From a virus: 64,000 nucleotides of DNA. The stretch's first letter is position 1. Each line of letters opens with the position of its first letter. Below the pieces are notes generated by a model that worked only from the letters and a program-made list of their open reading frames with translations, did no database searches and was not told where the DNA came from. A program made the translations under genes and the position numbers. Shown here piece after piece: positions 7,317 to 55,338 of this stretch. The stretch covers positions 1-64,000 of the IMG/VR virus record IMGVR_UViG_3300048590_000661, one strand, 5' to 3'.

Positions 7317-7910
7317 TTATTTCCTCTTAAATTCTTTAAAGATAATTAATGCTTTATTTTGGTTTTCGGCATTAAGGGTATTTGATTTAGTTGACTTCAA
7401 TAGCCCACAGTTAACAAGTAACTGTTTAGCTTCCTCAAATTCATTGCGTGTTAATCGTAAATGTGCTTTAGCTAGCTCCGCGGTTATCTTCATGTTCTTT
7501 TCGTAGTGTGCCACGATTAGACGCAAGGCATTAGTTTCGGCACCGCTGTTAACTAGGCTAGACTTATTGATGACGGTAGCAATTTCTTTCGTAGCTTTTT
7601 CGTTACATAATAGCTTGCCGCTTTGCACCCCTAACCAGAAGATTGCTGCACTAAGCCCAATTTCATCACCAAAGAAACGGTAGATATTAAATAGTGCAGC
7701 AATAACTAGCCCAACTACTAATACGGTCCCTGTGAATGGTGCATTAATCAAGAATGTCCAGCCACTTAAGTAAAAGTACAGGATTATGGATACACTAAGC
7801 CCACCGACCATATTTTGCATTAGGGGTACTAAAATGCTGCTATGGGCAGTTTGGGTTGCTCGTTTATTTTTAATTATTTCGCTTCTTAGTGTATCCATGT
7901 TACTAGTCAT
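7317..7910 (-). CDS. Membrane-anchored protein with C-terminal winged-helix-like domain
   Basis: The 197-residue product has two hydrophobic segments at about residues 30-70 (MVGGLSVSIILYFYLSGW and GTVLVVGLVIAALFNIYRF). A C-terminal region of about 85 residues (from TNALRLIVAHYEKN through LRLTRNEFEEAKQLLVNCGL) looks like a small winged helix. It lies directly after the FtsK-type translocase gene. A partner that links the motor to membrane or DNA is a reasonable inference. No named family is recognised. Confidence 0.65.
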   Translation of the reverse strand: MTSNMDTLRSEIIKNKRATQTAHSSILVPLMQNMVGGLSVSIILYFYLSGWTFLINAPFTGTVLVVGLVIAALFNIYRFFGDEIGLSAAIFWLGVQSGKLLCNEKATKEIATVINKSSLVNSGAETNALRLIVAHYEKNMKITAELAKAHLRLTRNEFEEAKQLLVNCGLLKSTKSNTLNAENQNKALIIFKEFKRK

Positions 7911-14268: not shown

Positions 14269-14964
14269 ATGATTTTAACAGTGCAAGATTATTCAGAATT
14301 AATTGCTATTTCACAGATGCGCAATAAACTACTTAATGCATTTTATTTAGTAGAAGATATTGGGCGTAATATTCTTGATATGCCTACTTTTTCGTTAGAA
14401 GATTTAGACTATCAAAAGCAATTAATGCTCAAGCTATTAGCAGATGTAGCTAATGTAATTACTTCTGATAATAACCTATTAAAAGATGCTAGTATTATTG
14501 AGCCAAATGAATCGACTATTTTATTCATTAAGTCGGCAGATGGTCAATTACGCTGGATAGGTAGTCCTACTAACAAATTTGAAGATGTGCATAAACATAT
14601 TCTTATGGAAAAAGCCCATAAGTTATTTGTTGAACGCATTGAAAAAGGTGAAGTGCCATACCCTAAATTATTAGTATGGCATGAACAAGAATGGGAAGTT
14701 GGGTCTACTGATTGGGTAGCATATGATGAACGAGGGTTCTTAGTCGCTGGTGGTATAATCTTTCCTCAACATGAAACATTAATGAAAGAACTTCAAAAAG
14801 ACCAACTTGGTATGTCACATGGTATGCCTATGTCTTCTGTTAAGTTTCAAAAGCTAAATACAGAAAAGGGTGACTATTTGGGTATTTCGGAATATGTATC
14901 TGATGAGTTTACGGTTTTACCAGTTAATGAAGCGGCTAACAAACTAACTAATTGGAGTGCATAA
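14269..14964 (+). CDS. Putative head maturation protease (S78-like pattern)
   Basis: The 231-residue protein sits between portal and scaffold, where the head protease usually is. From residue 95 it reads LRWIGSPTNKFEDVHKHI, then LLVWHEQEWEVGSTDW, GFLVAGG, and LGMSHGM. A His followed later by a Ser in a small-residue motif is like the His...Ser order of phage S78 prohead proteases (SxGF), but similarity is weak. The ATG at 14269 is better spaced from the AGAGG site than the ATG at 14260. It could be a non-enzymatic head protein instead. Confidence 0.55.
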   Translation: MILTVQDYSELIAISQMRNKLLNAFYLVEDIGRNILDMPTFSLEDLDYQKQLMLKLLADVANVITSDNNLLKDASIIEPNESTILFIKSADGQLRWIGSPTNKFEDVHKHILMEKAHKLFVERIEKGEVPYPKLLVWHEQEWEVGSTDWVAYDERGFLVAGGIIFPQHETLMKELQKDQLGMSHGMPMSSVKFQKLNTEKGDYLGISEYVSDEFTVLPVNEAANKLTNWSA

Positions 14965-14965
14965 C

Positions 14966-15520
14966 ATGGTAACGGATGAGAAAAAACGTGAATGGCTGTT
15001 AAAAACTGGTAATGAGTCAGCTTTAGAATTACTAAATAATAGTATTCAAAAGAATTTAGAAAAAACTGGCGGCTTACTATATAAAGAGGAAAATAAGGAA
15101 ATGAATGAAGAAAATCAAACAGAAGTAACAGAGAAAAAGGCAGTAGAGGAAGAAGTTCCTACCACTGAGCAAGAGGCAGTTACAGAAGAAATTGTAGCTG
15201 AAGAAGTAGCGCCTGTTTTACAAAAGGCAGAAGACATTGTTGATATGCTTGAACCTATGATCGCTGCCATGCAAACACTAACTGAGCGCATGGAAAAACT
15301 AGAAAAAGCAGTAGCGCAAGGTGGAAAGGTAACGGCACAGCTATTACCAGCAGCATCAACAAAAAGTCTATTAAAAGAGCGTTTACAGTTTATTGGTCCC
15401 GCAAATACGTTTTTAGTTGATGCAGACCCTAAACTTGTTAAGCAAAAACCTGCTGAAAATACAGTAGAATCTGAATCAGAAATTCCAGACACATTTGCTG
15501 GATTTCTAAACGGTCAATAA
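14966..15520 (+). CDS. Putative scaffold protein
   Basis: The 184-residue protein is very acidic (repeated EE in EKKAVEEEVPTTEQEAV...) with a coiled-coil stretch (MIAAMQTLTERMEKLEKAVA). It lies directly before the capsid gene, which is typical of scaffold proteins that shape the procapsid. The ATG at 14966 follows GGAG at the right distance and is preferred over the GTG at 14957. No family name can be given with confidence. Confidence 0.7.
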   Translation: MVTDEKKREWLLKTGNESALELLNNSIQKNLEKTGGLLYKEENKEMNEENQTEVTEKKAVEEEVPTTEQEAVTEEIVAEEVAPVLQKAEDIVDMLEPMIAAMQTLTERMEKLEKAVAQGGKVTAQLLPAASTKSLLKERLQFIGPANTFLVDADPKLVKQKPAENTVESESEIPDTFAGFLNGQ

Positions 15521-15537
15521 TTTTGGAGAACAATAGA

Positions 15538-17022
15538 ATGAATATTAATGATTTAGTTGAAGCTTATAGTGAACAAACTGCGCAAGCTTTCGGGGCACAA
15601 TCACGCCTATATAAAAGTGAAGGTTTAGGTAGTGGTGTTAACCCTGCTAGTATGGTTCATCTTCCATACGCTACAGGGGGTATTTTTGCGGACTGTGCAT
15701 TAGAAGCTTCAGTCCTTAACCTTCTAATTCAGCCAATTTATAGCATGGCTAACCTAATCCCTGTAGTTCCAGATAATAACGATAAAATTAAGTATGGGTT
15801 CCTTAGCTCAATTAGTAATGCTACTGGCGATTACCCATCTGCTCCTTGTGACCCATCACCAACGGTAGGTGATATTAACGCTGCATACGCTGAATTTTAT
15901 CCTGGTCGTGTAAGCTATAAAACCAAGACTATGGAGCTTGACCAGCTAATTCGACGTGCCCATGCTGGTGTGCGTGAAGACCTTTATTTAGTCGGTTCTG
16001 TTCGTGGTGTTAGTGCTGCACCAACTATGCAACAATTAAGTGACCCACAATTCATTAGCCGTGCTGCGGTACGTCGCCAAATGCAATTAGTTATGCGCCA
16101 AATGCAGATGGATCTGATCCACCAATTTTGGTCGGGTAATCCAACTGATAATGCCGTTAATACTGCGGGCGGTGGGCGTAAGGAATTTTGGGGGCTTAAT
16201 AACCTAATCGCTAATGATTATGGTAGCAAGTCATTTATTACTGGCACTAATAAAACTCTTCTAAATAGTGTCGTACTAGATTTTCAAGAAGGTTCACAAA
16301 CTGGTGTTATTGGTGGTGGTGATTCTATCTTTGCATATCTACAAGAAGCGGAAGATGTAACTTATCAACGTGCGGCTATGATGGGACTATTACCTACTGA
16401 GTGGAATTGGGTAATGCACCCGATTACATGGTCAGAACTAGTTAAATGGCTACCATGTGAAATGCTTACAGATTCTTGTGGGTATCCTGCACAAGCAAAT
16501 AGTTTAGTGGGTGCTGGTATTTCACTAAATGTTGCTGCTGATAATGGTATGGGTATTCAAGCCTTACGTCAACAATTAATGAATAGCATGTCATTAACCC
16601 TCAATGGTCGCACACATCGAGTAATCTTAGATAGTGGCGTTCCTGTTGTTCAAGGTGATGATGGCGAAGTTACACCAACACTTATCGCTGAATATGCGGC
16701 TAGCATCTATCTAGTTCCCGTTAATGTAGCTGGTGAAAGCGTTCTAGAATGGCGTCACCGTGATTATCGCAGTTTTGAGGAAGTACTATCTGCTATTCCT
16801 TCTAGCGCTGATGTTGGGCTAAGGGGTTGGACAGATGGTGGGCGTTTCCACTCTATTGTAGAGCGTCGAATGCGGTGTTTTGAAATTGATACTAAGGCCG
16901 AATTTGGTCTAGTATTTAGGGCACCACATTTAGCTGCACGCATTGATAATGTTGTTGCTGCTCCAAAGGGTTTCCGCCCACGGTTTGATATTGAGGCCAC
17001 TTTACCTCATAACCAAGCATAA
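15538..17022 (+). CDS. Major capsid protein
   Basis: A 494-residue protein in the position after the scaffold gene. The length and order fit an HK97-fold capsid. Recognisable parts include RKEFWGLNNLIANDYG (a segment seen in capsid proteins around the A-domain), and a C-terminal region with strands (FGLVFRAPHLAARID). It starts at ATG 15538, with GGAG 9 bases upstream; the TTG at 15523 lies on top of that site and is rejected. Its GC content is higher than that of the small genes, as is normal for a highly expressed gene. Confidence 0.85.
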   Translation: MNINDLVEAYSEQTAQAFGAQSRLYKSEGLGSGVNPASMVHLPYATGGIFADCALEASVLNLLIQPIYSMANLIPVVPDNNDKIKYGFLSSISNATGDYPSAPCDPSPTVGDINAAYAEFYPGRVSYKTKTMELDQLIRRAHAGVREDLYLVGSVRGVSAAPTMQQLSDPQFISRAAVRRQMQLVMRQMQMDLIHQFWSGNPTDNAVNTAGGGRKEFWGLNNLIANDYGSKSFITGTNKTLLNSVVLDFQEGSQTGVIGGGDSIFAYLQEAEDVTYQRAAMMGLLPTEWNWVMHPITWSELVKWLPCEMLTDSCGYPAQANSLVGAGISLNVAADNGMGIQALRQQLMNSMSLTLNGRTHRVILDSGVPVVQGDDGEVTPTLIAEYAASIYLVPVNVAGESVLEWRHRDYRSFEEVLSAIPSSADVGLRGWTDGGRFHSIVERRMRCFEIDTKAEFGLVFRAPHLAARIDNVVAAPKGFRPRFDIEATLPHNQA

Positions 17023-18288: not shown

Positions 18289-19749
18289 ATGGCAAATCGA
18301 CTTTCTGCGCCTGCGCGAAATGATTTTAGTAGACTATTCATTTTCCGTGATGGTGTATTTAAAAACCTACCAGCAGAATATTTAAACTGTGTTGGTATGG
18401 ATGGCTTAAGCCAAGATCGTGGCGATGTAACACCTGTAGAATGCCCATCACCTTATGAATATGGGGCGTTCGTTGAAGTAGGCCAAATTCCTGGTGAATT
18501 AAGCCGTATGACAACTACTGTAACTGGGCAAATGTCCCAATATGAATTAGATATTTTCTACGATCTATTCATTCGTAATTGCCCATTTGATCTGCATTTG
18601 CATTTTGGCAATTGCACATCGCCAGATGCCTTCAATCAGTATGATAAGGCATTTGTGTTTGAAAGTGTACTAGCTAGTTCTTTCAGTACAGACCCACTAA
18701 TTGCTTTAGCTAGTGGTGATCGTGCCGTCATTACTAATAGTATGGATATTAGTATTGGCAAGTTCTATTCTGTATTTAATCCTAAATACACAGTAGCAGC
18801 CAGTACATTAACGGTTGATGAACCACTAGTAGCCGTTTCGGTTTGTGACCAACGCTCTTGCGGTGAATGTAACGACCCTTCAAATGGTTGTGAAAAAATT
18901 ATTGGCGTATCTGCTGATGGTTATGTATATTACAGCCGTGATGGTGGTTCTAACTGGGCTAAATTCTTAATTGATGATGGTGCTGGAACTCCTGCGTCAC
19001 CTGTCGCTGTAGTTGGTGCAAAATGCTATAATAGCTCTTATGTTGTAGTAGAAAGCAATGGCGATGTTTGGTTAGGTAGCTTAGCTAAAATCTTTAATGG
19101 CGAAGACCCAACTTTTAGTAAAATTGATAGTGGCGCAGTTGGTACTTTAGCTGGTATTGACGCAACACGCGATATGGCATTAATGGTTGGTAGTGGTGGT
19201 ACTATTATTGCTCTTACTGGAACACAAACCGTTACTGCTGTTGGCACTGGTGTTACTGCTGCTGCACTATCAAGTGTCCATATTGGTCCTGATGGTACAG
19301 CTTTAGCTGTAGGTGCAAATGGTGTTGTGCTATATTCTAGTGATGGTGAACTATGGTATGTTGCACAATCTGTTCCAGCTAATGTTACCCTAACTGCGGG
19401 TGTAGCAAAATCAGACCGTAACTGGATTGTTGGTACTACTGGCGGCGCACTTTATGCCACAGAAAATGCGGGACGTACTTGGTTCCAAATTTCTTATGAA
19501 CTAGGTGCTTCTGCTACTATTACTGATATTCAACTAGCAACCACGCATGTTCTTTATATGACTGCTGGTGAAGCTCTATATCGTAGTATTGATGGTGGTG
19601 CTACATGGGTTGCAGAACCTAATAGTGCACTATCTATCGCTGCTAACGGTGGACTAAACGCTGTAGCTACTTGTACTTTTAACCCTAATTTCGCTGTAGT
19701 TGGTGGTGAAAGTAGTGGTGCGGCAGGTATTCTAATCTTAGGTAGCTAA
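18289..19749 (+). CDS. Tail-tube-like protein with C-terminal Asp-box propeller
   Basis: The 486-residue protein joins an N-terminal tail-tube-like domain (about 1-170: ARNDFSRLFIFRDG, LNCVGMDGLSQDRGDVTPVECP, VTGQMSQYELDIFYDLF) to a C-terminal propeller. The propeller has Asp-box repeats: SRDGGSNW (about 217), TENAGRTW (about 390), SIDGGATW (about 434). Asp-box blades are typical of sialidases and YCF48-like photosystem assembly factors. The 21645 product has the same layout. The propeller would project from the tail and may bind carbohydrates. A terminator-like hairpin follows the stop. Confidence 0.75.
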   Translation: MANRLSAPARNDFSRLFIFRDGVFKNLPAEYLNCVGMDGLSQDRGDVTPVECPSPYEYGAFVEVGQIPGELSRMTTTVTGQMSQYELDIFYDLFIRNCPFDLHLHFGNCTSPDAFNQYDKAFVFESVLASSFSTDPLIALASGDRAVITNSMDISIGKFYSVFNPKYTVAASTLTVDEPLVAVSVCDQRSCGECNDPSNGCEKIIGVSADGYVYYSRDGGSNWAKFLIDDGAGTPASPVAVVGAKCYNSSYVVVESNGDVWLGSLAKIFNGEDPTFSKIDSGAVGTLAGIDATRDMALMVGSGGTIIALTGTQTVTAVGTGVTAAALSSVHIGPDGTALAVGANGVVLYSSDGELWYVAQSVPANVTLTAGVAKSDRNWIVGTTGGALYATENAGRTWFQISYELGASATITDIQLATTHVLYMTAGEALYRSIDGGATWVAEPNSALSIAANGGLNAVATCTFNPNFAVVGGESSGAAGILILGS

Positions 19750-19826: not shown

Positions 19827-21488
19827 TTGAGTAAATTACACCATAGTTTTACAGGTACATTATCTAATGCAATTGCTAATGACTTATGCGTAGAAAATAT
19901 GGAAATTGGTGGTATTTTAGTTAATGCCACTACTTTTTCTGTATACGTGCGAACAAAAAAGTCTACACCATCTGTCGTTGGTGACTGGTCGTTATTTACA
20001 GGTAGTTCTGGCGGCGTAATTTCCGATAAATTTGTTAATGGCTTATTATTTAGTCCTACCACAAATATTTTATCTGTTTTAAGAAGCGACGGAATTACAT
20101 TTACCACTGATTTATCATCTTTAAAGGTGCCAGTTGCATCAGTGATTACATTTAATAATGCAGGCACTAATTTTATATCTACTACAGTAGATGCAGCAAT
20201 TAAAGAACTTAATACTAGTAGACCGTGGGTAAAAGTTGGTACACTACAATCTAGTGCTACTACTAATAAACCTGTTTTAGTTGGGGATAATATTTATCAT
20301 TTAGGTAAAGTAGTTTTAGGAACTTTTATTTCTGATGCTGCTTCTGCACTATTAGTTAATGGGTCAGTAGTTACAGGCAAAGATAATAGTATTAATACTA
20401 ATGGGTCTGTTACATCTGCAATTATTGGTGGTTATGAAAATACTATTACATATACCAATGATCCTGGGTCTGGTGACGATTTAACATATGGTAGTCAAAT
20501 ATTAGGTGGTCGTGGGGTTGATATTGATGGGCATCGTATATTAGCTTTTGCTAATTCTAATATGGCTATTACTGGTAGTAAGCATTTTGCAATCCAAAAC
20601 GAAACTATGCCTATTACTGGACAAAATAACTTTGTGGCCTATGGTAGTGTTGGTAGAGTAGATGGTAATAATAATACAGTTTTTCGTGTAACTGGTGTAA
20701 ATATTTTAGGCAGCAATAATACTATATTTTATATGCCTAGCACTGTTGAATTTAGTAATTCTAATACAAATGTTATTCTTTATGCACAAAATGTTGAAAA
20801 GATTACTAATGCAAATAAAAATATTATTTTAAAGGCAGTTAACGGTTCGGTAAGAGCCAGTGATAACCTTGTATGGGGTGAAAATTTACATCTATTATCT
20901 GGACTTGATCGGTCTGATAATGTAGTATTAGGGCGCAATATTTATGTTGGTGGTAATAATAACTTTATTTGGTCTGCCACACAAAATGTTATTCCTGGGT
21001 ATATTGGAATAGATCCTGCTGTAGATAATAATGGTGTATTTGCTATTTATGATAGTTCTGCCTATGCAGATTTTAGCAGTGTTGCAAACAATCAATTCAT
21101 GGCTAGATTTGCTGGTGGATACAGATTAAGGACTAATGCTGCTGGCACAGTTGGAGTAGATTTAGCCGCTGGTGGAAGTAGTTGGGCATCAGTTTCATCT
21201 ATTTTAACTAAGGATGTAGTAGATGATACAATTAATGTTGATGAACTAGTATCTAGATTAAATACTGTTAGTTTTAAAATATATAAATTCAAAGATGATG
21301 CTAGCAATACTAATTTTCTATCTACCACTGCTGAAGAGTGGCATACTTTAATGAGTGGGTTCACTACGCCAGAATATGCCGTTAATAATAGTGGCAATAT
21401 TCCTGCAATTCGTACTAATGACCAAATATCATTAGCATTAATGCTAATTCAAGATATATATCGTAAACTAGAAGAAATGAGTAACTAA
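19827..21488 (+). CDS. Fibre protein with shared N-terminal docking module
   Basis: The 553-residue protein starts at TTG, set by a GAGGG site 8 bases upstream. Residues 1-60 hold the module shared with 23458, 29554 and 30046 (DLCVENMEIGGILV, TTFSVYVR, GDWSLF). The middle is rich in Asn, Gly and Thr with a repeated hexapeptide-like pattern (GSNNTIFYM, NVVLGRNIYVGGNNNF), suggesting a beta-helical or trimeric fibre shaft. The C-terminus is helical (FLSTTAEEWHTLMSG, IRTNDQISLALMLIQDIYRK). Receptor binding is inferred. Confidence 0.65.
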   Translation: MSKLHHSFTGTLSNAIANDLCVENMEIGGILVNATTFSVYVRTKKSTPSVVGDWSLFTGSSGGVISDKFVNGLLFSPTTNILSVLRSDGITFTTDLSSLKVPVASVITFNNAGTNFISTTVDAAIKELNTSRPWVKVGTLQSSATTNKPVLVGDNIYHLGKVVLGTFISDAASALLVNGSVVTGKDNSINTNGSVTSAIIGGYENTITYTNDPGSGDDLTYGSQILGGRGVDIDGHRILAFANSNMAITGSKHFAIQNETMPITGQNNFVAYGSVGRVDGNNNTVFRVTGVNILGSNNTIFYMPSTVEFSNSNTNVILYAQNVEKITNANKNIILKAVNGSVRASDNLVWGENLHLLSGLDRSDNVVLGRNIYVGGNNNFIWSATQNVIPGYIGIDPAVDNNGVFAIYDSSAYADFSSVANNQFMARFAGGYRLRTNAAGTVGVDLAAGGSSWASVSSILTKDVVDDTINVDELVSRLNTVSFKIYKFKDDASNTNFLSTTAEEWHTLMSGFTTPEYAVNNSGNIPAIRTNDQISLALMLIQDIYRKLEEMSN

Positions 21489-21658
21489 TGATTAATATAG
21501 ATGAACTAAAAAACAGGGTTACACAATTAACGCAACAACATCAACAACGTATTGAACAATTGCTAATGAATGACCCTGTTGTACAAAATATCAGTGGGCA
21601 ATTAACGATATTAACACAGATTATATCGCAGTTGGAGAAAGATAATGAAAAGAAATAA
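21488..21658 (+). CDS. Small helical protein between fibre and second tail-tube gene
   Basis: A 56-residue product, MINIDELKNRVTQLTQQHQQ... ending ILTQIISQLEKDNEKK, with a Gln-rich helical pattern. Its ATG overlaps the stop of the fibre gene (TAATG) and its end overlaps the next gene by 14 bases. The GGAG site of the 21645 gene lies inside it. It resembles a short fibre-assembly helper or coupling peptide, but the role is unknown. Confidence 0.7.
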   Translation: MINIDELKNRVTQLTQQHQQRIEQLLMNDPVVQNISGQLTILTQIISQLEKDNEKK

Positions 21659-23162
21659 GTTAGCAAGAAATGATATTAGCCGTATTTTCGTTGCGGAAAA
21701 TGGCACTTCTCCAAATGACGAATATAGCTATCATAATTGTATGAAAATGGAAGGGTTAGATAAGTCACTACCAGATGTTACAGTAGCGCAATGTCCACAT
21801 CCTACACAAGCTAAAAAGTTTATTGAAGTGGCAGAAATTGAAAGTGGTGAAGAAAGCAGGTGGTCTACTTCATTAACTGGGCGAATGCCATTGCGTGAAT
21901 CAAGTGTTTTGTTTGATTTATTTAATGCTCGACAATCGTTTGATATGCAAGTTCATTTTGGCGAATGTTATGATGTGTCAGATTTTAATAGTTTTGATTT
22001 AGCAATGATCTTAGAAAACGTTCGGATTAATAATTATAGCACAGACCCACTAGGTTCGTTAGAATCTAGCGAAGTAGCGCTTATTAATGAAACGGTTTCT
22101 GTTAGTATTGGTAATGTTAGTTACGCTTATAAGCCAATTATTAATGAAGTTGGTGAAGAAGTGACTGTTAATGGTGCTATTACTGATTTGGCATTTACGC
22201 AAGGTGATACATGCACTAATGATTATGCTAATTTACTATTTGGCTTAAAAATCCCTTCAGATGGTGTTGGGAATGATGTATATATTGTTTGGTCTGATGA
22301 TAAAGGGGTTACATGGAATGAGGTACTTTTAGATTGTGCAGCTACACTTTCTGGTAGTATTCTTAGATCATATAATATTCAAGCAGATGAAAAAAATGTA
22401 TACGTGACACTTAACGAAGCATCAGGTAATGGTCATATTTATATCGTTAGGATTATTGATATTCTTAATGGTATTGACGGTAGCCCAATTATTTCTGTTT
22501 TAGATAATGTGAATAGTATCTATAACAGTCGAGTATTTGGGAAAACCATTATTACAGTAGGCAACGCTGGCACAATTAACCTTATCAATGCAAACTCATT
22601 AACATATACAACCTTACCATCTGGAACTGTACAAAATTTATATGCCATTGATGGAATATCAGAAGATGAATTTATTATTGGTGGCGCTAGCAATACATTG
22701 CGCTATTATAACTCTTCATCTGGATTTAGAACTATTACTACTAGTGGTGGCGGAACTAGCGCTATTGAAGCAGTAGCAATGCTAAATGAAGATATTTGGT
22801 TAGTTGGAAATTATGACGGATATTTATTAGCCACTACCAATGCTGGTAAAACTTGGAAAGTAAAAGAATTATTTGGTGCTTGTGTATCTTCTATTTCATT
22901 TGTAAACTCTATTGTCGGCTTTTTAGGGCTAAAAACTGGTGAAGTTTACCGCACAATTGATGGCGGAGCAACATGGATACAGATAGAAGACGAATTAGCA
23001 CAATTACCTTCTGGTGCCGAACTATTAGGGTTATACGCTAGTGATGTGAACACTTTCTATGCTTATGGTCGTGTTGCAGGTGGTGCAGTTCCAGACCCTT
23101 GTGACCCATTAAATACATTTATTGTTGGTGATGTCGGTTGGATTTTAAAAGGCGGCGTATAA
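21645..23162 (+). CDS. Second tail-tube-like protein with Asp-box propeller
   Basis: A 505-residue paralogue of the 18289 product. The N-terminal domain matches (LARNDISRIFVAENG, HNCMKMEGLDKSLPDVTVAQCPHP, LTGRMPLRESSVLFDLF, MQVHFGEC, YSTDPLGSLES). The C-terminal half is an Asp-box propeller with SDDKGVTW (about 221), TTNAGKTW (about 403) and TIDGGATW (about 444). Two tube-like proteins could form a mixed tube, or one may be a terminator-type protein. Both propellers end in a Gly-rich strand (IVGDVGWILKGG). Confidence 0.72.
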   Translation: MKRNKLARNDISRIFVAENGTSPNDEYSYHNCMKMEGLDKSLPDVTVAQCPHPTQAKKFIEVAEIESGEESRWSTSLTGRMPLRESSVLFDLFNARQSFDMQVHFGECYDVSDFNSFDLAMILENVRINNYSTDPLGSLESSEVALINETVSVSIGNVSYAYKPIINEVGEEVTVNGAITDLAFTQGDTCTNDYANLLFGLKIPSDGVGNDVYIVWSDDKGVTWNEVLLDCAATLSGSILRSYNIQADEKNVYVTLNEASGNGHIYIVRIIDILNGIDGSPIISVLDNVNSIYNSRVFGKTIITVGNAGTINLINANSLTYTTLPSGTVQNLYAIDGISEDEFIIGGASNTLRYYNSSSGFRTITTSGGGTSAIEAVAMLNEDIWLVGNYDGYLLATTNAGKTWKVKELFGACVSSISFVNSIVGFLGLKTGEVYRTIDGGATWIQIEDELAQLPSGAELLGLYASDVNTFYAYGRVAGGAVPDPCDPLNTFIVGDVGWILKGGV

Positions 23163-23457: not shown

Positions 23458-25017
23458 ATGTCTGATAAATATAGAGTTGCCGGAACAACAGAAATACCAG
23501 AAGTAGTAAATGATATATGTGTGTGCAATGCTCATATTGGCGCAATATTTGTTGGCACTACTAACCGAGTGTTCGTTAGAGTAGATGTAACTATTCCATG
23601 CGATGATTCTGATTGGGTAGAACTTGACCAAAGTGCGGGGTTTACATTTACCTTTATTGGTGATGCTGGTACAAATTTAGATGTAGATAATGCAGATCAA
23701 ATAACATTAGATGGTGTTAATGGGCTAACTGCTAGCATTAGTGGTACAACTATTTCGCTTAATGGGCATTTATATTCTAGTAATCTTGCTCCCAGTGGCA
23801 CACCTACAGACCCTACACAAGTATCTATTCATTTAAATACGGCTAATAATAGTGTTTACGTATGGAACCCTAATACATCTACATGGGTCATTATTAGTAA
23901 AGGTGAAACAGTTACTACCCTTATTAATAATGGTAACGGTACATATACATATACAAATGAGTTAGGCGTTCAAACTACATTTGCTTTTTCTCAAACAGTC
24001 ACTACACTAGTAAATAATAATAATGGTACAGTAACATACACTAATGAAGCTCTTAATACAGTTACACTTGACTTAGTAGCTATTATTAATACATATGGGA
24101 GCGTAGGTAAAACCTTATTATTTAATACAAATACATATAATTTATCGTTACTTAATGGTGCTGGGCAAATTATTAGCACTATTAATTTAACCCCTCAAAT
24201 ATCTGGTGATGTTGATAATATTTTAGAGTTGCGACCCAATGGGTTATATGCTAGCGAAACTATTACTTCATTAGTTGATAATTTAGATGGTACATTTACA
24301 TATACCGGAGAAGATGGTTCACAAACTACTATTAGTGGTGCTAGTGAAACAATAACAACATTAATAGACAACAATAACGGTACATTTACGTATACAAACG
24401 AGTTGGGTGTTGTTACTGTATTAGATGTATCTGGTGCAAACCTTAGTATTAGTAACAGTAGCGTATTTGGTGCTGAGTACTTAGTTAAAAATGCAGAAAT
24501 AACGGCTGGGGAATTACTAATTACTTCTGGTCCAGAACACTTAAGTAGTGGCACAACAGTTTCAAGCCCAATTGTTGAATTAACACCAGTACCATCAGAT
24601 ATTGATAACCAAGCAAGTATTACTATTGATGTGGTTAACCCTTCATTAACTAGAAATGCAAAGGCACAATTTGTATTCACAGGGTACCCTGTTACATTCG
24701 TTTCTTTTCAACCAACATTTTTAACATTAATACTTGAAGAAAATATTACGATCAATGGTGTTAAACCCAGTGATTTTGTGAACCATATTTCACAATTTAA
24801 ACTTGAAGGCAACCAACGGTTTACTGCTCGAACACAAGGATATTCTGGTATATTAGACTTATTACCTGGACAAACACTACAAATTGTAATAAGTTTACGA
24901 GCATACTTTTATGAATTTTCTGATGGAGAGGTAACGTTACCAAACAACTTAAATGATGGTACGTATGGTTTAAACTTCACTTATGGCAAAAATAGTTATC
25001 ACATAGTAGTTATATAG
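23458..25017 (+). CDS. Fibre protein with docking module and NNxGTxTYTNE repeats
   Basis: A 519-residue protein. Residues 15-62 hold the docking module (DICVCNAHIGAIFVGTTNRVFVR, here split: CNAHIGAIFVG, NRVFVR, SDWVEL). From about 150 to 320 there are four repeats of TTLxNNxxGTxTYTNE (near 155, 182, 264 and 295). The C-terminal 190 residues form a beta-rich domain (ELLITSGPEHLSSGTTVSS). Such repeats are seen in beta-structured shafts of adhesins. The receptor is unknown. Confidence 0.65.
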   Translation: MSDKYRVAGTTEIPEVVNDICVCNAHIGAIFVGTTNRVFVRVDVTIPCDDSDWVELDQSAGFTFTFIGDAGTNLDVDNADQITLDGVNGLTASISGTTISLNGHLYSSNLAPSGTPTDPTQVSIHLNTANNSVYVWNPNTSTWVIISKGETVTTLINNGNGTYTYTNELGVQTTFAFSQTVTTLVNNNNGTVTYTNEALNTVTLDLVAIINTYGSVGKTLLFNTNTYNLSLLNGAGQIISTINLTPQISGDVDNILELRPNGLYASETITSLVDNLDGTFTYTGEDGSQTTISGASETITTLIDNNNGTFTYTNELGVVTVLDVSGANLSISNSSVFGAEYLVKNAEITAGELLITSGPEHLSSGTTVSSPIVELTPVPSDIDNQASITIDVVNPSLTRNAKAQFVFTGYPVTFVSFQPTFLTLILEENITINGVKPSDFVNHISQFKLEGNQRFTARTQGYSGILDLLPGQTLQIVISLRAYFYEFSDGEVTLPNNLNDGTYGLNFTYGKNSYHIVVI

Positions 25018-25026
25018 GAAAAAATA

Positions 25027-25578
25027 ATGGCAAATATTAATATTTTAGATGCTCTTGGAGCAAGTAAATTTACAAAAAGTTCTGGTGCTGGTAGTAGCGG
25101 TGATCCGTTTATTCCAGAACATTTAGAAAGCAATAGCGCAGCAATGCTAACGGCTTTACAAACAATTGATAATATGATTGCGGGTAACGAGGCGCAGGTA
25201 GATGTTATTACACTACCTGCTTTACCTACGGGCACTAATACGATTGGCAATGTTGGTATAGCCCGTACAGCTAGCACATCATATGTTGGCACTGTAACTG
25301 CTAGTGGTGATACTACTATTATTGCTGCTCCTGGTGTTGGGTTGCGATACCGAGTTCTTAGTTGGTCGTTTTGGAATGAAACGGCTACCGCAACTAAAGC
25401 TACTCTAAAAACTGCCACTATTAACATTGATTCATATTACATGTTATCACAGTCTTTTGGCAAGAATGGACAGCTACAACTAAATGAAGATTTAGTATTA
25501 GGTACGAACCAAGCAATCTTAATGAACTTAAGTGTAGCTACTACTGTTGGTTATAGTATCCGTGTACAGGTGATATAA
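25027..25578 (+). CDS. Fibre-associated beta protein A
   Basis: A 183-residue protein: an N-terminal region with low-complexity Gly/Ser (KSSGAGSSGDPFIPEHLES) then a beta domain (GDTTIIAAPGVGLRYRVLSWS, ATLKTATINIDSYYML, VGYSIRVQVI). The 32923 product is a paralogue of the beta domain (GDNIIIAAPGEGKAIDLITWSWW). Both probably form small virion-surface or head/tail accessory parts. Overlaps the next gene by one base (TAATGG). Confidence 0.65.
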   Translation: MANINILDALGASKFTKSSGAGSSGDPFIPEHLESNSAAMLTALQTIDNMIAGNEAQVDVITLPALPTGTNTIGNVGIARTASTSYVGTVTASGDTTIIAAPGVGLRYRVLSWSFWNETATATKATLKTATINIDSYYMLSQSFGKNGQLQLNEDLVLGTNQAILMNLSVATTVGYSIRVQVI

Positions 25579-26768: not shown

Positions 26769-29438
26769 ATGGCGATATATTACGTAGATACAGTAGCGGG
26801 CAATAATGCAAATAGCGGCACTACTTTTGCTAATGCTTTTAAGACTATTACTAAAGGTATTTCTGTATTAAATTCTGGTGATGCTCTTAAAATAGGGGCA
26901 GGAATTTATAAAGGCGAAGCTTTAGTAATTAATAAACCTAATGTAGTTGTAGAGCCTTATGGCAACGGAGTAGTGACTATAGATGGTGAATATAAGTATC
27001 CATTGGGTAGTTTGGTCAGAGAAGGTATTGTTCTGCCTGATGGCACAGTTACTACGGGGTATACAAATGCTGCTTTATTAGATATTAATGCTAATGGCGT
27101 CACACTTAGGGGTATTAATGGGCGTAACTCTAGGGGTAGAGGGATGCGTATATATGATTGCGAAAATATATTAGTAGAAGATTGTACTATGGAAGGTGCC
27201 AGAAATAGTGCATTGCTTATTTGGTTTGCTAATGATTTAATAATACGACGGTCTACCTTCTCATATGGGTGCAATTATGCTCCTGCATGGCGCACCCCAC
27301 AAACAGCACTTTTCCCAAAAGGCGCAGATTTTAGTAGGTGTAATAACGGGTTAATTGAAGATTGCGAATTACACCACTTTTATGGTGGCGCATTAGGGTC
27401 TACCCTTAGTACGAACACTATATTTAGAGGGTGTAAAATTCATGATTCTTGGCGTACTGGTATTAATTTAACTGCCTCTACAGATGTCCTTGTAGAAAAT
27501 TGCCATGTGTATCAAGAAGACCCATTATGGGTTAATAGGGCATTTGGTGGTATTATTTTCTTACCAGAAAATGACGCTCCTGGTGGCACTAATGTTAGGT
27601 GCATTTTTCAAAATAACTTAGTAGTAGATTATGATGGGGCATGTAATGTTGGGCATGAAACATTAGTAATTAATGATGATTGCAAAATGATTAACAATAC
27701 TTTTATTAACCGTAAGTCTGGCGAAGCTGTTGCAGATTTAAGAAAAACACACCCAACACTTACTATTGAAAATAATATATTCTATGCTGGTTCTGGCGTA
27801 ACTGCTAACATAACTTCTGAATTTATTAATAGTGACCCTACATTTACTAATAATTTATGGTATGGGTACACTCCTGATGCTGGTATTCAAGGGCCAAACT
27901 ACCTTAATGCTGACCCATTATTTGTAAATATTAATGGTGCAGCGTCTATTAGGGATAATTTTAAACTATTGGTAGGTAGCCCAGCAATAGATAGTGCTAC
28001 TAATAATGCCCCATTAACTGACCTAACTGGTGCTAGTCGTTCTGGCGTTCCAGATAGGGGTGCATTTGAATATGCAAGTGGCGTCACTATACCTGTAGAT
28101 GTACCATGCGATAATTCACAAAATGGTGAATTTATTCGTACTATTCTTAATAGCACTAACGATAGCGCGGTACTTGGTGGGGCTTGGAGTAATAATACCA
28201 CCTTAAGAGTAGGCGATCAAAGTTCAACAATATTTGACGATAGATTCGCAGTTACATTCCATAACATCCCTGTTAATGTAGATAATATAATAGAAAGTGC
28301 AATAGTAACTTTAACAATTAGAGCTACAACAGGTGTTGGTGGTAAAGTATTAATTAGGGGTGAAAAAAGCCTTAACCCAGTACACCCTAGTAGTATTGGA
28401 GATTTTGATGGCAGAACAAAAACCACGGCATCAGTGATCTGGAATGTTGGTACACCAACTTTAGATACTCAAGTTACTACTCCTGATTTATCTGCCATTA
28501 TTCAGGAAATTATAGACCAGCCAGGGTGGGTAAATGGTAATAGAATAACTCTATATTTTACTGATAACCAAGGGGCTGGCTATCAAGGGCAAGCTGGAAC
28601 AGCATTCGATTCTTATGATGAAGGTGAAATTGCTACTGGTCCTAAACTGGAAGTAGAATATTCTTGTTTTGTTAGTGGTGGTGTTTGTGATGGCAATATA
28701 CTTTTAAATTCAGACTTTTCTTCTGGTGAAGATAATTGGACAGCTACTAGTGATGGTGTTAATGAAGTAAGTGGTGGGCAATTCCATATTAGTGGTACTA
28801 TTGCTACGTCACCTTTTAACCAACTATTACAAGGTGGGCTTAATATAGTAGAAGGCACGGCATATACACTATCTGTATTACTTAGGTCTGTAGGTGCAGT
28901 TGGGTCAATTAGGGCACAATTATTACAAGATAATTCGCCATTTGCCAACTTAGGGTTAAATGAGACTTTTTCGGTTAGCACAGAACAAACAGTGTATACG
29001 CTTAACTTTGTTGCTACTGCTGATGAGCTAGACGCAAGACTAAGGTTTACATTTTTTACTGGTGATTTTTATATCGATGATGTATGCCTAACTTCTACTG
29101 GTGCGGCACACATTACCGCCGATTTTTATGCATTAGACCCAACAGTTAATGAAGATGAACCCTTGACTTTCGTAAATAATTCTACTAGCACAAATGGTAT
29201 TACTTCATACTTATGGAACTTTGGGGATGGAAGAACGTCTACAGACTTTGAGCCAATTGGTATATCATACCCTGATGCGGGTGAATATATGGTCACTTTG
29301 ACAGTTAATGGGCCTGATGGCGAGTCTAGCGCGACTACTTTAGTCACGATTAATGAAGTTTTGCCGCCTGAAGTAACTGCAAATAATAGTATTCATATTG
29401 GAAAGGCATATGTGACGGTTTTAGTTGTAACAACATAA
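26769..29438 (+). CDS. Beta-helix tail spike with DNRLRE, CBM-like and PKD domains
   Basis: An 889-residue modular protein. Residues about 1-440 form a right-handed parallel beta-helix of DUF1565/pectate-lyase-like type (IYYVDTVAGNNANSGTT, then repeated NVVVEPYGNGVV, GVTLRGINGRNSRGRGM). About 450-635 looks like a DNRLRE domain (RTILNSTND, TTLRVGDQSST, ATTGVGGKVLIRGEK). About 640-775 resembles a family 4/9 carbohydrate-binding module (NILLNSDFSSGEDNW). About 780-865 is a PKD domain (SYLWNFGDGRTSTDFEP, YMVTLTVNGPDG). A surface-polysaccharide-binding or degrading spike is likely. No catalytic triad could be assigned with confidence. Confidence 0.78.
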   Translation: MAIYYVDTVAGNNANSGTTFANAFKTITKGISVLNSGDALKIGAGIYKGEALVINKPNVVVEPYGNGVVTIDGEYKYPLGSLVREGIVLPDGTVTTGYTNAALLDINANGVTLRGINGRNSRGRGMRIYDCENILVEDCTMEGARNSALLIWFANDLIIRRSTFSYGCNYAPAWRTPQTALFPKGADFSRCNNGLIEDCELHHFYGGALGSTLSTNTIFRGCKIHDSWRTGINLTASTDVLVENCHVYQEDPLWVNRAFGGIIFLPENDAPGGTNVRCIFQNNLVVDYDGACNVGHETLVINDDCKMINNTFINRKSGEAVADLRKTHPTLTIENNIFYAGSGVTANITSEFINSDPTFTNNLWYGYTPDAGIQGPNYLNADPLFVNINGAASIRDNFKLLVGSPAIDSATNNAPLTDLTGASRSGVPDRGAFEYASGVTIPVDVPCDNSQNGEFIRTILNSTNDSAVLGGAWSNNTTLRVGDQSSTIFDDRFAVTFHNIPVNVDNIIESAIVTLTIRATTGVGGKVLIRGEKSLNPVHPSSIGDFDGRTKTTASVIWNVGTPTLDTQVTTPDLSAIIQEIIDQPGWVNGNRITLYFTDNQGAGYQGQAGTAFDSYDEGEIATGPKLEVEYSCFVSGGVCDGNILLNSDFSSGEDNWTATSDGVNEVSGGQFHISGTIATSPFNQLLQGGLNIVEGTAYTLSVLLRSVGAVGSIRAQLLQDNSPFANLGLNETFSVSTEQTVYTLNFVATADELDARLRFTFFTGDFYIDDVCLTSTGAAHITADFYALDPTVNEDEPLTFVNNSTSTNGITSYLWNFGDGRTSTDFEPIGISYPDAGEYMVTLTVNGPDGESSATTLVTINEVLPPEVTANNSIHIGKAYVTVLVVTT

Positions 29439-29553: not shown

Positions 29554-29967
29554 ATGGCAGCAATTTTAGGAACAGCAGACGGGTACGCTAATCAGAACTT
29601 CGTAGATATTGATTGTTCTGAGCATTTAGATGATAAACCAAATATTAATAACCCTTGCATTTGTACAATGGCAGTAGGTGAGGTTTATGTTACTCCTACT
29701 GATCGAGTATTTATGCGTATCAACCGCAACATTGGTGAAATCTGCAACGATAATGATTGGATTGAGCTAAAAGCAGCATTAACTAATGGCACACACACAG
29801 TAGATAAACTAAATATTTCTGCTGGTACGGCCACTAAATCACAGATTAATCTAGTAGATGGCGTTGAACCAACTACTAAAGTTAATGGCGATATTTGGCG
29901 AGAAGGTGCCGCTATTCATGTTTATTTGGGTAGTGCTGAATACACTCTTGATATGACCGCAGTATAA
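29554..29967 (+). CDS. Short fibre-base protein with docking module
   Basis: A 137-residue protein almost entirely made of the docking module shared with the fibres: HLDDKPNINNPCICTMAVGE, VYVTPTDRVFMR, CNDNDWIELKAA. A short beta tail follows (GTHTVDKLNISAGTATKSQI, VKVNGDIWREGAAIHV). It resembles the front of the 30046 protein (NPCICMMSVG). It may be a fibre base without a tip, or a competitor for fibre docking sites. Confidence 0.65.
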   Translation: MAAILGTADGYANQNFVDIDCSEHLDDKPNINNPCICTMAVGEVYVTPTDRVFMRINRNIGEICNDNDWIELKAALTNGTHTVDKLNISAGTATKSQINLVDGVEPTTKVNGDIWREGAAIHVYLGSAEYTLDMTAV

Positions 29968-30045: not shown

Positions 30046-32232
30046 ATGCCAGTAATTGAAAACCAAGAATATAGAAATTTTATTGACCCTAGATGCTATG
30101 AACATTTAGAGTTTCCTAACATAAATAACCCTTGCATCTGTATGATGTCTGTAGGCAGTATTTATATTGGCACTACTGGTAGGGTATTTGTCCGCCAAAA
30201 GAAACGAAATGAAGAAATTTGTCGCTTTACAGATTGGGGCGAATTAATACCATCTCAGGAAATTGTTGGTGATAATTATCTATTAGGTGCAAGTTATAAT
30301 AGCACGACAAATATCCTCACCTTTACTTTAGTTAATGGTACAATTCTTACTGTTGACATGAATGATTTAGTAGATCCACCATCTATTATGACGGCAGATT
30401 TGCCTAATGCTCTTTGGGTGCATAATAATGGCAGTGGGGTACTTACTGATATCCGTTCTGTATCTGCCAACGAAAACAACATTTTAGATATTGGTACAGA
30501 TGGTGGTGCTTATCTTAACGCAGTATCGCTTTGCGCTCTTATTCAAGACTGCAATTTAGGGGTTGGGTTTAACTATATTTCTGGTACAAATACCCTTCGT
30601 TTACTAGACGCTAATAACGATGTTCTTAGCCAAGTAGCACTAAATAATACTTCATTAGTTAACAACAATAATGGGACATTTACTTTTACTAATGAAGTAG
30701 GAACAACTACTACTATTGATTTTAAGCGTACCATTATTACTAACCCCGAAGCTAATGTATACGTCATTACTGATGATAATGGTAATGTGGTAGAAATTGA
30801 TACAACTAATGTTGTTACTACCCTTACGCTAGTAGATTGCACATTAACCTACACTAATGAAGCTGGTACAGTAGTAGATCTAGATTTAACAACTTGTATT
30901 CAAGACTCTCAAAGTCTTACTACTATAGAATATTCTGGTGGTGTCATTACCTACACTGATGAGGCTGGTAATGAAACTACCCTGAATATTGGTGTTGAAA
31001 ATTTCTTAGCTAATGTAGATTATGATGGCGTACTTAATCAATTAACATTTACTCTTACTAATGGCACAGAATTTATTGTCAGCTTAAATGATTTAGTAGA
31101 CACTTTTGCAGTTAATATATTAGATACTGCTACCATTAATATGTCTATTAGTGGTACTGGGCCTACTATTGATCCTTATATTATTAGTGGGTCTGTAAAG
31201 ATTTCTACTGATGCTAATAATAAATTAGAAGCTAAAGCAGATGGGCTATATGTAGATACTAGAATACAATCTGCTAATGACTTTATCAATAATTCTGGTG
31301 TCGGTACTAATTTATTTCCAATTACCTATGACCATGCTAGTGGTAAATTTACTCTTACACAATTAAGCCATAGTAACTTAGCTAATTTAAATAGTGATGA
31401 CCACACACAGTATCTGCTGGCGGACGGTTCGCGCACGGGTGCGAGTAGTTCGTTGCAGGCGTTCACCAGCGGCGTGATTACCGGAATTGTGCGACCGGCG
31501 ACCGATTCGACTACGGCGTTTCGGATACAGGACGCGGCAGGTAGCACGTCTGTGCTGACGGTGGACACGACGAATGGTCGCATTGGTGTCAATGGCGCTC
31601 CGGGAGCGAACAGATTGTCTGTAAAATCGGCAGGGGGCATTGATGCCCTCCTCGTGCGGGACAGTGACGGAAAAGTATTTTGGGGGTCTACATCAGGATT
31701 CGCGTTGGGTGGGGGCACATATCCACTAGGGATTTTACATGACGGAATATCAGCCGCCATCACAAATAGCATTGGTGACATGCAGATACGCAACACGTCG
31801 GCAGCGGGGCGACTGTTATTCCGCACCATAAATACTAATCGGCTATTGATTGATGCGCTTAGTAATGGAGTGTCTGCCATTACGACAAATGTCATTGTGA
31901 CGCACACCGATTCAGGCACACCGGCGACGGGATTTGGCACAGGTATTAATTTTTTACTCAAGAGTAGCACGACGGCAGACCAAAGTGCGGGGCGTCTCAT
32001 TTTCAAGTGGGACGTTGCCGACCACGCCACCCGCAGCGCGACCGGCCAACTGTCGGCCTATTACACCACCACCGAGCACACGCCTGTCACCTGGGGCGCA
32101 AACAGCGGCGGGGCGTTGCTCTCGTTTTATGATGTCGCCACACCGATTGCCCGCCAAACGCTGCCGCTTGGTGCGAGTAGTGACGATATTGTCAATGCAC
32201 TGGCGAATTTGGGATTAACAAAACTTTCATAG
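30046..32232 (+). CDS. Fibre protein with docking module and GC-rich imported tip
   Basis: A 728-residue fibre. Residues 1-80 hold the docking module (NPCICMMSVGSIYIGTTGRV, CRFTDWGELI). Three degenerate NNxGTFTFTNE-type repeats lie around 204-320. Up to about residue 450 the codons are AT-rich like the rest; from nucleotide 31402 they turn GC-rich. The switch lies at the DDHTQYLLADGSR motif, a conserved junction motif of many tail fibres. The tip (about 450-728) is Ser/Ala/Gly/Thr-rich. The C-terminus (ASSDDIVNALANLGL) is helical. Receptor binding by the tip is inferred. Confidence 0.75.
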   Translation: MPVIENQEYRNFIDPRCYEHLEFPNINNPCICMMSVGSIYIGTTGRVFVRQKKRNEEICRFTDWGELIPSQEIVGDNYLLGASYNSTTNILTFTLVNGTILTVDMNDLVDPPSIMTADLPNALWVHNNGSGVLTDIRSVSANENNILDIGTDGGAYLNAVSLCALIQDCNLGVGFNYISGTNTLRLLDANNDVLSQVALNNTSLVNNNNGTFTFTNEVGTTTTIDFKRTIITNPEANVYVITDDNGNVVEIDTTNVVTTLTLVDCTLTYTNEAGTVVDLDLTTCIQDSQSLTTIEYSGGVITYTDEAGNETTLNIGVENFLANVDYDGVLNQLTFTLTNGTEFIVSLNDLVDTFAVNILDTATINMSISGTGPTIDPYIISGSVKISTDANNKLEAKADGLYVDTRIQSANDFINNSGVGTNLFPITYDHASGKFTLTQLSHSNLANLNSDDHTQYLLADGSRTGASSSLQAFTSGVITGIVRPATDSTTAFRIQDAAGSTSVLTVDTTNGRIGVNGAPGANRLSVKSAGGIDALLVRDSDGKVFWGSTSGFALGGGTYPLGILHDGISAAITNSIGDMQIRNTSAAGRLLFRTINTNRLLIDALSNGVSAITTNVIVTHTDSGTPATGFGTGINFLLKSSTTADQSAGRLIFKWDVADHATRSATGQLSAYYTTTEHTPVTWGANSGGALLSFYDVATPIARQTLPLGASSDDIVNALANLGLTKLS

Positions 32233-32262
32233 TCGCAGCATCGCACACGCAAACAAGGGGAT
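31402..32262 (+). other. GC-rich island encoding a fibre tip
   Basis: Base composition changes abruptly near 31402 (GTATCTGCTGGCGGACGG) and returns to AT-rich near 32262, about 30 bases after the stop codon. Runs such as the ones in 31981-32160 are visibly more than half GC, whereas the surrounding genes are about one third. The island covers the fibre tip and a little of the 3' flank, as expected from a single recombination event. Confidence 0.85.
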
Positions 32263-32308
32263 ATGCTAACCATTAGCGAGTATTATGGATTAATTAGAGG
32301 TTTTTATT

Positions 32309-32743
32309 ATGACCACAGTTAATGAATTATTGTACCAAGAAAAGATTGACGATGCATATAAAGAATATCGTAATGAACCACGTAATATTATTAATTATGG
32401 CGTTCGCCCTAATGCCCAAAAGTGTTTAGAGTCATATAATAGATTACAAATAGCCCTAGCTGGTGGTAACGATTCTATTATAGATATTTCATCTAAATCA
32501 GAGGTGTTTTCGATTATTACATCTTCTGTACTACCTTTTATTGCTATATTGCAAAATGCTATGAAATTAATCATTGACACACCGATTTTTATTGACCAAT
32601 TGGCGGCTATGCAAGGTATGGAAGTATTACCATTTTTAGGTGTTGGTTCAGATTCTATGATTACGCCAGAAGAATATGTTATATTGTTGTATGAGGCTAT
32701 GACCTCTATTCAAAATGTGATCAGTATTTTAGAAAGTGAATAA
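32309..32743 (+). CDS. Hypothetical structural protein, 144 aa
   Basis: Product MTTVNELLYQEKIDDAYKEY... is mainly helical, with hydrophobic stretches (SVLPFIAILQNAMKLII, VILLYEAMTSIQNVISILE). No family is recognised. AT-rich again, immediately after the GC island. It sits 3 bases before the small gene at 32747. The position suggests fibre assembly or a minor structural part. Confidence 0.65.
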   Translation: MTTVNELLYQEKIDDAYKEYRNEPRNIINYGVRPNAQKCLESYNRLQIALAGGNDSIIDISSKSEVFSIITSSVLPFIAILQNAMKLIIDTPIFIDQLAAMQGMEVLPFLGVGSDSMITPEEYVILLYEAMTSIQNVISILESE

Positions 32744-32746
32744 TTT

Positions 32747-32923
32747 ATGGCGGACTTGACCAAAGAGCAAATTAAAGAGTACCAACAAAAAATGGCGCAA
32801 GAATTTTTAAAGGAATATAATGATTTATGTGAAAGAACTGGATTTGTATTAATTCCTTATGCCATAATTGATAATGAAGGTAGAATCAGGGCAGAGAACC
32901 AAATTGGAGTGAAACCTAACTAA
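32747..32923 (+). CDS. Hypothetical small protein, 58 aa
   Basis: Product MADLTKEQIKEYQQKMAQEF... with a charged helix and a strand-like end (GFVLIPYAIIDNEGRIRAEN). Its stop overlaps the next start by one base (TAATG), which supports expression. No family is recognised; similar small helical proteins often occur next to fibre genes. Confidence 0.68.
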   Translation: MADLTKEQIKEYQQKMAQEFLKEYNDLCERTGFVLIPYAIIDNEGRIRAENQIGVKPN

Positions 32924-33336
32924 TGGCAACAAATATTCGAGACGGACAAAGATTATCAGCTAAAGATGCTACCCCTAAAGGTGGTACAGCTTCTACTAGC
33001 GGTGACAACATCATTATCGCTGCTCCAGGTGAAGGAAAAGCTATTGACTTAATTACATGGTCATGGTGGAATAAAACCAATACAGAAACTTCCGTAATTC
33101 TTAAATCTGCTAGCATTGCTAATATTGATAACTATATTACTGATAAATTAGGTAATGGCAAACTATTTACTATTCCTGGCGGGTTTAAGGTTCAATTAGC
33201 AGAAAATGAGGCACTAGTGCTTAACTTAAGTGCAGCTAATGAGCATGGCTATTTTGTATTGTACCAAATTTATGATATTAGAAATGGGAAAGCAGATGAG
33301 GAAACGCAATACGATTATATTATAATGGCGTATTAA
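32923..33336 (+). CDS. Fibre-associated beta protein B
   Basis: A 137-residue paralogue of the beta domain at 25027: GDNIIIAAPGEGKAIDLITWSWW, SVILKSASIANIDNYIT, ANEHGYFVLYQI. The C-terminus (DIRNGKADEETQYDYIIMAY) is extra compared with 25027. A reading frame without a start (33300-33488) begins just inside the 3' end in the -1 frame and looks protein-like, so the gene may once have been longer. Confidence 0.65.
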   Translation: MATNIRDGQRLSAKDATPKGGTASTSGDNIIIAAPGEGKAIDLITWSWWNKTNTETSVILKSASIANIDNYITDKLGNGKLFTIPGGFKVQLAENEALVLNLSAANEHGYFVLYQIYDIRNGKADEETQYDYIIMAY

Positions 33337-54340: not shown

Positions 54341-54385
54341 AAGCACTAGCGAATAATATACTAAATAAAGTATTCGCTAGTGCTT
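54341..54385. terminator. Perfect 15-bp terminator between convergent units
   Basis: AAGCACTAGCGAATA (54341-54355) pairs with 54371-54385. It ends the late operon right after the endolysin stop. The last codons of the leftward HNH gene at 54361 lie inside it, so it serves both sides. Confidence 0.88.
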
Positions 54386-55338
54386 TCTATATAATAATGT
54401 TCAAAAGCTTGTATTAATGCGTCCCTGTATTTCCATTCTTCCCCCATCCAAGTTTCTAATTCATTAAGGGTATTAGTCTTTGTTCCGTAAGTAGAATGAA
54501 AATTTTTGTGACACGGTTCGCAAAGCGTAATCAAATTTGAATGTTCATCAAATAATTTTAAATAAGTAGTTAAATCATAAATGTGGTGAACTGCTTTGCG
54601 ATGCTTCTTAGTTCCACAATTTTGACATTGGACATTGTCACGTTGACGAATTAATTTAACAGGCACTCTATCTCTGTAGTCTTTTTTAGTTGCGTTATCT
54701 AGCTTCTCTGCTTTCCAACTAGTACTTTTGCTACCCGAATTACTTTTATTTACATCAATTCGTAAGCATCCACATGATTTTGTCGTATTGCGTGATAGTG
54801 AGTGCCCGCTAACAATGACCTTACTACCACAATCGCATTCGCAATTATATTTCCACCCCTCGTTTTTTGTAATTTCATATCTACTAACTACTAATAATCG
54901 CCCAAATTTTTGCCCTGTTAAATCATTAGAATGAGCGCACTTAACACAAGAATAACTTTTGTTTTTATTTGTTAAACTAGAAATCTCAACTTTGTATAAA
55001 TTATTACACTTTAAGCATTTGCACGAAAAATATCTGCGTGACTTACCATCTTTGCCTACTTTTTTATCTAACTCTTCTATTACTTCCCAATTTTTAAATA
55101 TATCCCCAGGATTAATAACTAATTGCTTAGCTAATCCGTTACATTTTTTGCAGCAAAAATCAACATTAGGATTAACTAAACTACTAAGATAAATTGTATA
55201 ATTAATGCCACATTTCAAACATTTACACAAAAATGACCTAGACTTAACTCCATTTTCTGCACCACGCTTATCTACTTCCTCAATTACTTCCCAACTCTTG
55301 AATATATCTCCAGGTTTAACATCCCATTTTTGGGCCAA
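54361..55338 (-). CDS. HNH homing endonuclease with duplicated zinc-ribbon domain
   Basis: A 325-residue relative of the nucleases at 1795 and 61501. Here the N-terminal Cys-rich module occurs twice in tandem (PGDIFKSWEVIEEV...LCKCLKCG...CCKKC and PGDIFKNWEVIEEL...CKCLKCN...CVKC). Then come the GQKFGRLLVV module (ending SCGC) and HNH (IRQRDNVQCQNC, KAVHHIYDL, NLITLCEPCHKNFH). The start is TTG at 55338, fixed by AAGGAG 7 bases upstream. It lies at the very end of the leftward cluster and abuts the terminator. Mobile passenger. Confidence 0.87.
   Translation of the reverse strand: MAQKWDVKPGDIFKSWEVIEEVDKRGAENGVKSRSFLCKCLKCGINYTIYLSSLVNPNVDFCCKKCNGLAKQLVINPGDIFKNWEVIEELDKKVGKDGKSRRYFSCKCLKCNNLYKVEISSLTNKNKSYSCVKCAHSNDLTGQKFGRLLVVSRYEITKNEGWKYNCECDCGSKVIVSGHSLSRNTTKSCGCLRIDVNKSNSGSKSTSWKAEKLDNATKKDYRDRVPVKLIRQRDNVQCQNCGTKKHRKAVHHIYDLTTYLKLFDEHSNLITLCEPCHKNFHSTYGTKTNTLNELETWMGEEWKYRDALIQAFEHYYIESTSEYFI

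Follow-up and report, generated by a model that had tools for sequence, protein, structure and literature searches.

The virus record analyzed here is 124,598 bases long, and the window, by which we mean the whole stretch under study, is its first 64 kb (GC 34%). A fibre gene that appears to be chimeric lies on the plus strand at 30046–32232 and encodes 728 aa in an uninterrupted frame. Its product begins with a docking-like module (30046–30250), which has 54% identity over 59 aa to a short protein encoded at 29554–29967, followed by a stalk built from beta-type repeats such as NNNGTFTFTNE (30251–31365, GC3 0.21). Both parts are native in composition and together have 27% identity over 395 aa to a paralogue encoded at 23458–25017. 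The stalk leads into a junction motif, SHSNLANLNSDDHTQYLLADGSRT (31366–31437), whose first half has native codons and whose second half has codons of the putative donor. The candidate acquired tip (31402–32232, 276 residues) is GC-rich (GC 0.55) and includes a repeat (STTAFRIQDAAGSTSVLTVDTTNGRIGV, 31510–31593) and a C-terminal domain with a GTPATGFGTGINFLLKSSTT core and a helix at its end (31840–32229). A short GC-rich segment past the stop codon (32233–32262) is a putative 3' remnant of the donor, and two small genes of native composition follow at 32309–32743 and 32747–32920. All of these features are on the plus strand.

The docking module is of the type NNPCICxMxVGxIYxGTTxRVFVR and is present in four genes of this phage, at 19827–21488, 23458–25017, 29554–29967 and 30046–32232. 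The other three genes have different C-termini and native composition, showing that, within this genome, the N-terminus is conserved while the C-terminus varies. These genes probably encode several fibres of one virion, with a common stem type and varied ends. Further genes of the region were also noted. The paralogues at 18289–19749 and 21645–23162 (30% identity over 445 aa) have weak matches to BNR/Asp-box (beta-propeller-like) repeats, and an 889-aa protein encoded at 26769–29438, in which a right-handed beta-helix is combined with a PKD domain, is possibly another surface-binding virion protein. Two small paralogues (25027–25578 and 32923–33336; 41% identity over 96 aa) each lie slightly 3' of a fibre gene. 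Members of an HNH endonuclease family occur across the record (54361–55338 and 61501–62286 in the window, and L052:1263–2015), and several more ORFs of L052 and L053 open with a similar EINPGDxFxNKHW segment. At L051:12908–16474 an N-terminal piece of a ribonucleotide reductase (15725–16474) lies beside a LAGLIDADG-looking ORF (14876–15586) and more reductase-like ORFs, an arrangement that is perhaps an interrupted gene.

Within the frame of the fibre gene, GC rises from 32 to 55% at about 31388–31422 and reverts at about 32166–32289. In 300-base windows, GC is 0.31 before the motif, 0.50–0.58 over 31400–32299, and then 0.31 again. A maximum-likelihood change-point analysis placed the left edge at 31399 (range 31388–31422) and the right edge in the range 32166–32289, with 32205 as the best position and 32260 almost equal to it. 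Codons 1–452 are native (GC3 0.21), while from codon 453 GC3 is 0.57, and the per-codon likelihood flips at codons 452–457 (GAC CAC ACA CAG TAT CTG). Native codon preference continues through LSHSNLANLNSD and donor preference starts between codons 452 and 457, which places the break inside the motif DDHTQYLLADGSR (DDHTQYLLADG). The foreign stretch comprises the last 277 codons and about 30 bases 3' of the stop codon; the 30 bases past the stop have 57% GC and the following 46 bases 28%. The original prediction, made from the sequence of the window, was that composition flips inside the frame and returns just after the stop (31402–32262) and that the docking module stays native. The sliding-window, change-point and codon analyses agree with it on each of these points, and its coordinates fit both edges.

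The strength of this contrast was assessed against 394 native windows of equal length, in which GC3 has a mean of 0.204, an SD of 0.033 and a maximum of 0.329. The codon score of the tip is 14 SD under these windows, and no other gene within the 64-kb window has comparable codon usage. A rise in GC at 15–17 kb has native GC3 (0.23–0.26). A minus-strand gene at 7317–7910 has a GC3 of 0.37 and the worst codon score among the native genes, second to that of the tip. For the same amino acids, native synonymous usage predicts a GC3 of 0.21 in the tip, versus the 0.574 found, so the GC change is synonymous; because the shift sits in third positions, amino-acid content does not explain it. This bears on the proposal that the tip is of a type that is always GC-rich and is old in this phage. 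The tip family is rich in Gly, Ala and Thr, which raises GC1 and GC2, but the synonymous part of such a constraint is refuted by the third positions, and in relatives the GC of the tip tracks that of the genome, falling to 0.46 in L082 (tail GC3 0.36). We therefore consider a compositional constraint extremely unlikely.

The closest relative of the tip is a 657-aa fibre of the phage contig L066 (GC ~0.53), which carries terminase, portal and head genes. Its alignment with the tip starts at the motif, which reads DSHDSTYFLAADGTTTGAT in L066, and covers the first repeat; after extra repeats it resumes over the last 123 residues to the C-terminus, with 45% identity over the aligned positions and 56% over the 123 aa. 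The L066 position matching the break holds a decayed motif, and the alignment starts there. The N-terminus of the L066 fibre is unrelated to that of our fibre gene; hence a second phage carries the C-terminal module behind an N-terminus of another kind. A module internal to the L066 fibre also has 47% identity over 34 aa to the C-terminal part of the short fibre-like protein at 29554–29967, whose tip differs from that of its neighbor. The L066 fibre gene (L066:3399–5372) lies between the portal and head-morphogenesis genes, an unusual site for a tail fibre.

A profile of the C-terminal domain had 18 matches in viral contigs, two of them contigs already met under other labels (L067 = L057 and L070 = L056). 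In all 18, the GC of the module is similar to that of its surroundings, with no break of its own (genomes 0.43–0.67, genes 0.46–0.67). When 68 sets were ranked by similarity to the synonymous codon usage of the tip, L067 was first, L066 second and the phage's own genes 67th. Protein similarity and codon usage are two independent lines that point to the same donor type, and L066 is a relative of the donor lineage, not the donor. The original prediction had named a partner phage or a host as the GC-rich source. The presence of tip relatives in GC-richer phages, on other N-termini, supports an L066-like phage lineage and does not support host DNA. A cellular donor, such as a member of the Patescibacteria, would be consistent with the first tip repeat, which has 51–54% identity over ~40 aa to Patescibacteria/Saccharibacteria proteins of L054 and L055. 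However, the sole relative alignable over the full tip is in the L066 phage contig, and the C-terminal domain profile had no match in 192 Patescibacteria-group genomes, in a search run without a positive control, leaving a cellular source highly improbable. The proteins that share the ~45-aa repeat are large predicted surface proteins (L054:8984–13540 and L055:8750–13198).

Other searches returned few relatives. The whole fibre protein had no tblastn match among 50,697 phage records, and the tip DNA had none among phages and plasmids. Searches with the tip protein gave only matches of E 0.3 or worse in phages and one short match in plasmids, and a DNA pattern of the tip core had no match in its strict form and two when loosened. 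In viral searches, we found no sister phages by the docking module or a neighboring gene, and none that has the gene as it would have been before the exchange; this last result counts against an exchange. The tip is present as a single copy in the 124.6-kb record, with no second variant or inverted copy, ruling out a duplication within the record. A diversity-generating retroelement or invertible fibre segment was also considered and rejected, the whole record having one tip match.

The C-terminal 130 residues of the tip are predicted to form beta strands with a short closing helix (AlphaFold pLDDT 74); the model of the full tip has a pLDDT of 57 and its first part is unusable. The C-terminal domain has no significant sequence match in the PDB. 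Its structural neighbors there, the best of them trimeric fibre domains, belong to Bdellovibrio fibres, the T5 L-shaped tail fibre and phage tailspikes, and the top six are all fibres or tailspikes, with Z values up to 7.6, which is under the level safe for a shared fold. In BFVD, the neighbors are proteins resembling tail fibres, from uncultured phages and from cyanophages. The modular layout and the weak fold match suggest that the tip is the receptor-binding end of a tail fibre, and it probably makes up the outer portion of a fibre that is a trimer.

The genes that follow the fibre gene link it further to L066. The product of the first (32309–32743) has 31% identity over 80 aa (E 2e-12) to that of the gene directly 3' of the L066 fibre, and the second (32747–32920) is a probable homologue of L066:5697–5891 (E 0.008). 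Among tip-family fibres, only that of L066 has these small genes beside it. Both genes are of native AT-rich composition in our phage. The recipient and the donor type therefore had a cassette in common, and only the tip and about 30 bases past it are foreign. Positions 32233–32290 are collinear with the start of the next gene in L066 (shuffle p 0.007), although for the 30-base remnant alone a different L066 site scores higher, so the sequence match of the remnant to that gene is suggestive, not decisive.

We favor the interpretation that this is a mosaic fibre produced by homology-guided exchange of the tip inside a fibre cassette common to both phages, the donor being the one richer in GC, and we assign it a probability of roughly 0.82. 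The native AT-rich docking module and stalk would have been fused within DDHTQYLLADG to the C-terminal tip of another fibre, from a phage lineage of ~50–57% GC, with both phages having borne a related cassette of a fibre and the same small downstream gene. A double crossover is the likely event. On the left it would have taken place in the motif, which is conserved at the protein level and at which local DNA similarity would be highest, and on the right close to where the shared downstream gene begins, which would account for the ~30 bp of donor DNA past the stop. The codon usage of the tip has not yet drifted to that of the native genes, and by this measure the transfer is recent. With the tip it acquired, the virion may differ in what it binds. 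The original prediction had gone further, to host-range switching by tip exchange; a recent foreign tip joined in frame within DDHTQYLLADG is what our results uphold, and host-range switching, unsupported as stated, is a guess. Both ends of the tip are located with a precision of tens of bases by the composition contrast, which also ties the tip to a donor type sharing the next gene. We regard the gene as an unusually clear single exchange event of the familiar phage mosaicism, and not as one that settles a long-standing question.

That the source record is an IMG/VR metagenome assembly counts against this reading, and the presence of the junction motif in many phages would fit a chimera in which an assembler joined two phage populations of one sample at the motif. 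Such a chimera would require two joins 0.86 kb apart, one in frame and one barely past the stop, after which native genes resume, and exact sharing with known motif copies of at most 12 bp is short for a k-mer join. We consider an assembly artifact very unlikely. The main rival to the proposed mechanism, though not to the transfer itself, is illegitimate joining, in which the tip lands at random, selection then keeps a fusion that is in frame and lies at a domain border able to tolerate it, and the motif is a structural hinge and not a site of recombination. The motif DNA is 67–79% identical to the best other copies over 42 bases, and its longest exact match to 57 other copies is 12 bp, which favors illegitimate joining and counts against homology-guided exchange; the donor's motif DNA may have been closer than these best known copies. 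On the other hand, the break is confined to a six-codon stretch of the motif, and the L066 alignment begins at the same place. Random joining is a serious alternative, albeit one we think rather unlikely. No recombinase was found among the proteins scanned, which covered part of the phage's genes, a further point against homology-guided exchange.

Written as degenerate DNA, the motif was found in at least 45 stretches of viral contigs. A 24-aa consensus of it extends the matches to uncultured phages of very large size (42 and 40 bits) and, at a weak level, to tailed viruses of Halorubrum. The GC3 step of +0.41 in our fibre gene is the largest among 43 copies, and a composition step is absent from most of them. 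Smaller steps were seen in L008 (−0.27), L023 (−0.22) and L043 (+0.24), and it is possible that these are further exchanges. Some pairs of phages bearing the motif are alike upstream of it and unlike downstream, but by eye their similarity fades past the motif with no sharp break. A literature search by string alone found no phage paper naming the motif. It is conceivable, but doubtful, that DDHTQYLLADG(S/T)R is a general adapter for fibre tip exchange across very unrelated viruses, acting via locally conserved DNA. Such an adapter would span AT-rich, high-GC and very large phages and haloarchaeal tailed viruses, in the manner of a widespread natural fusion site, a generalization we offer as speculation. 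Given the diversity of the contigs in which it was found, study of the motif as a general junction may be worthwhile, and if it is a shared junction it would be a marker for fibre tip exchanges in uncultured phages.

Exchange of tips at a conserved motif is already known, and this fibre gene is a further case. In Kuttervirus tail spikes, receptor-binding modules are exchanged at the motif GTTAVSL (PMC8432352), and our gene is similar in having a conserved N-terminus with the C-terminal module swapped at a short conserved protein motif. The Kuttervirus spikes differ in their motif and protein family, and involve near-identical modules (91–100%) exchanged among related phages, whose host recognition was tested in part (PMC8432352), whereas ours is one event with a distant donor lineage, known from its sequence. 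GTTAVSL is not present in the translation of the fibre gene, which has a different motif at its junction. The tail-fibre mosaics of P2, lambda, the T-even phages and Mu (Haggard-Ljungquist, 1992; Montag, 1989; both as cited in PMC3945230) are, as described there, similar in that fibre C-termini move between unrelated phages. Unlike those cases, ours is in an uncultured phage and has a strong GC contrast, by which the exchange can be dated as recent. With regard to mechanism, Rad52-like phage recombinases carry out relaxed homologous recombination (PMC3945230), and the way proposed there for diverged phage DNA to be joined at borders of locally greater similarity, stf/tfa among them, is like that envisaged here. 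In contrast to the cases tested in that work, the border similarity here is shorter (the minimal pairing quoted there for Red-beta is 23–27 bp) and no such recombinase was among the proteins scanned. The Bdellovibrio mosaic adhesive trimeric (MAT) fibres Bd2439 and Bd1334 (PMC10769870), which also have swappable tips, and the T5 L-shaped fibre have a weak fold likeness to our C-terminal domain in their neck or tip-proximal domain (Z 7.0–7.6); a Z below 8 may reflect only a common arrangement. Relative to these systems, what is new here may be the breadth of this motif's occurrence.
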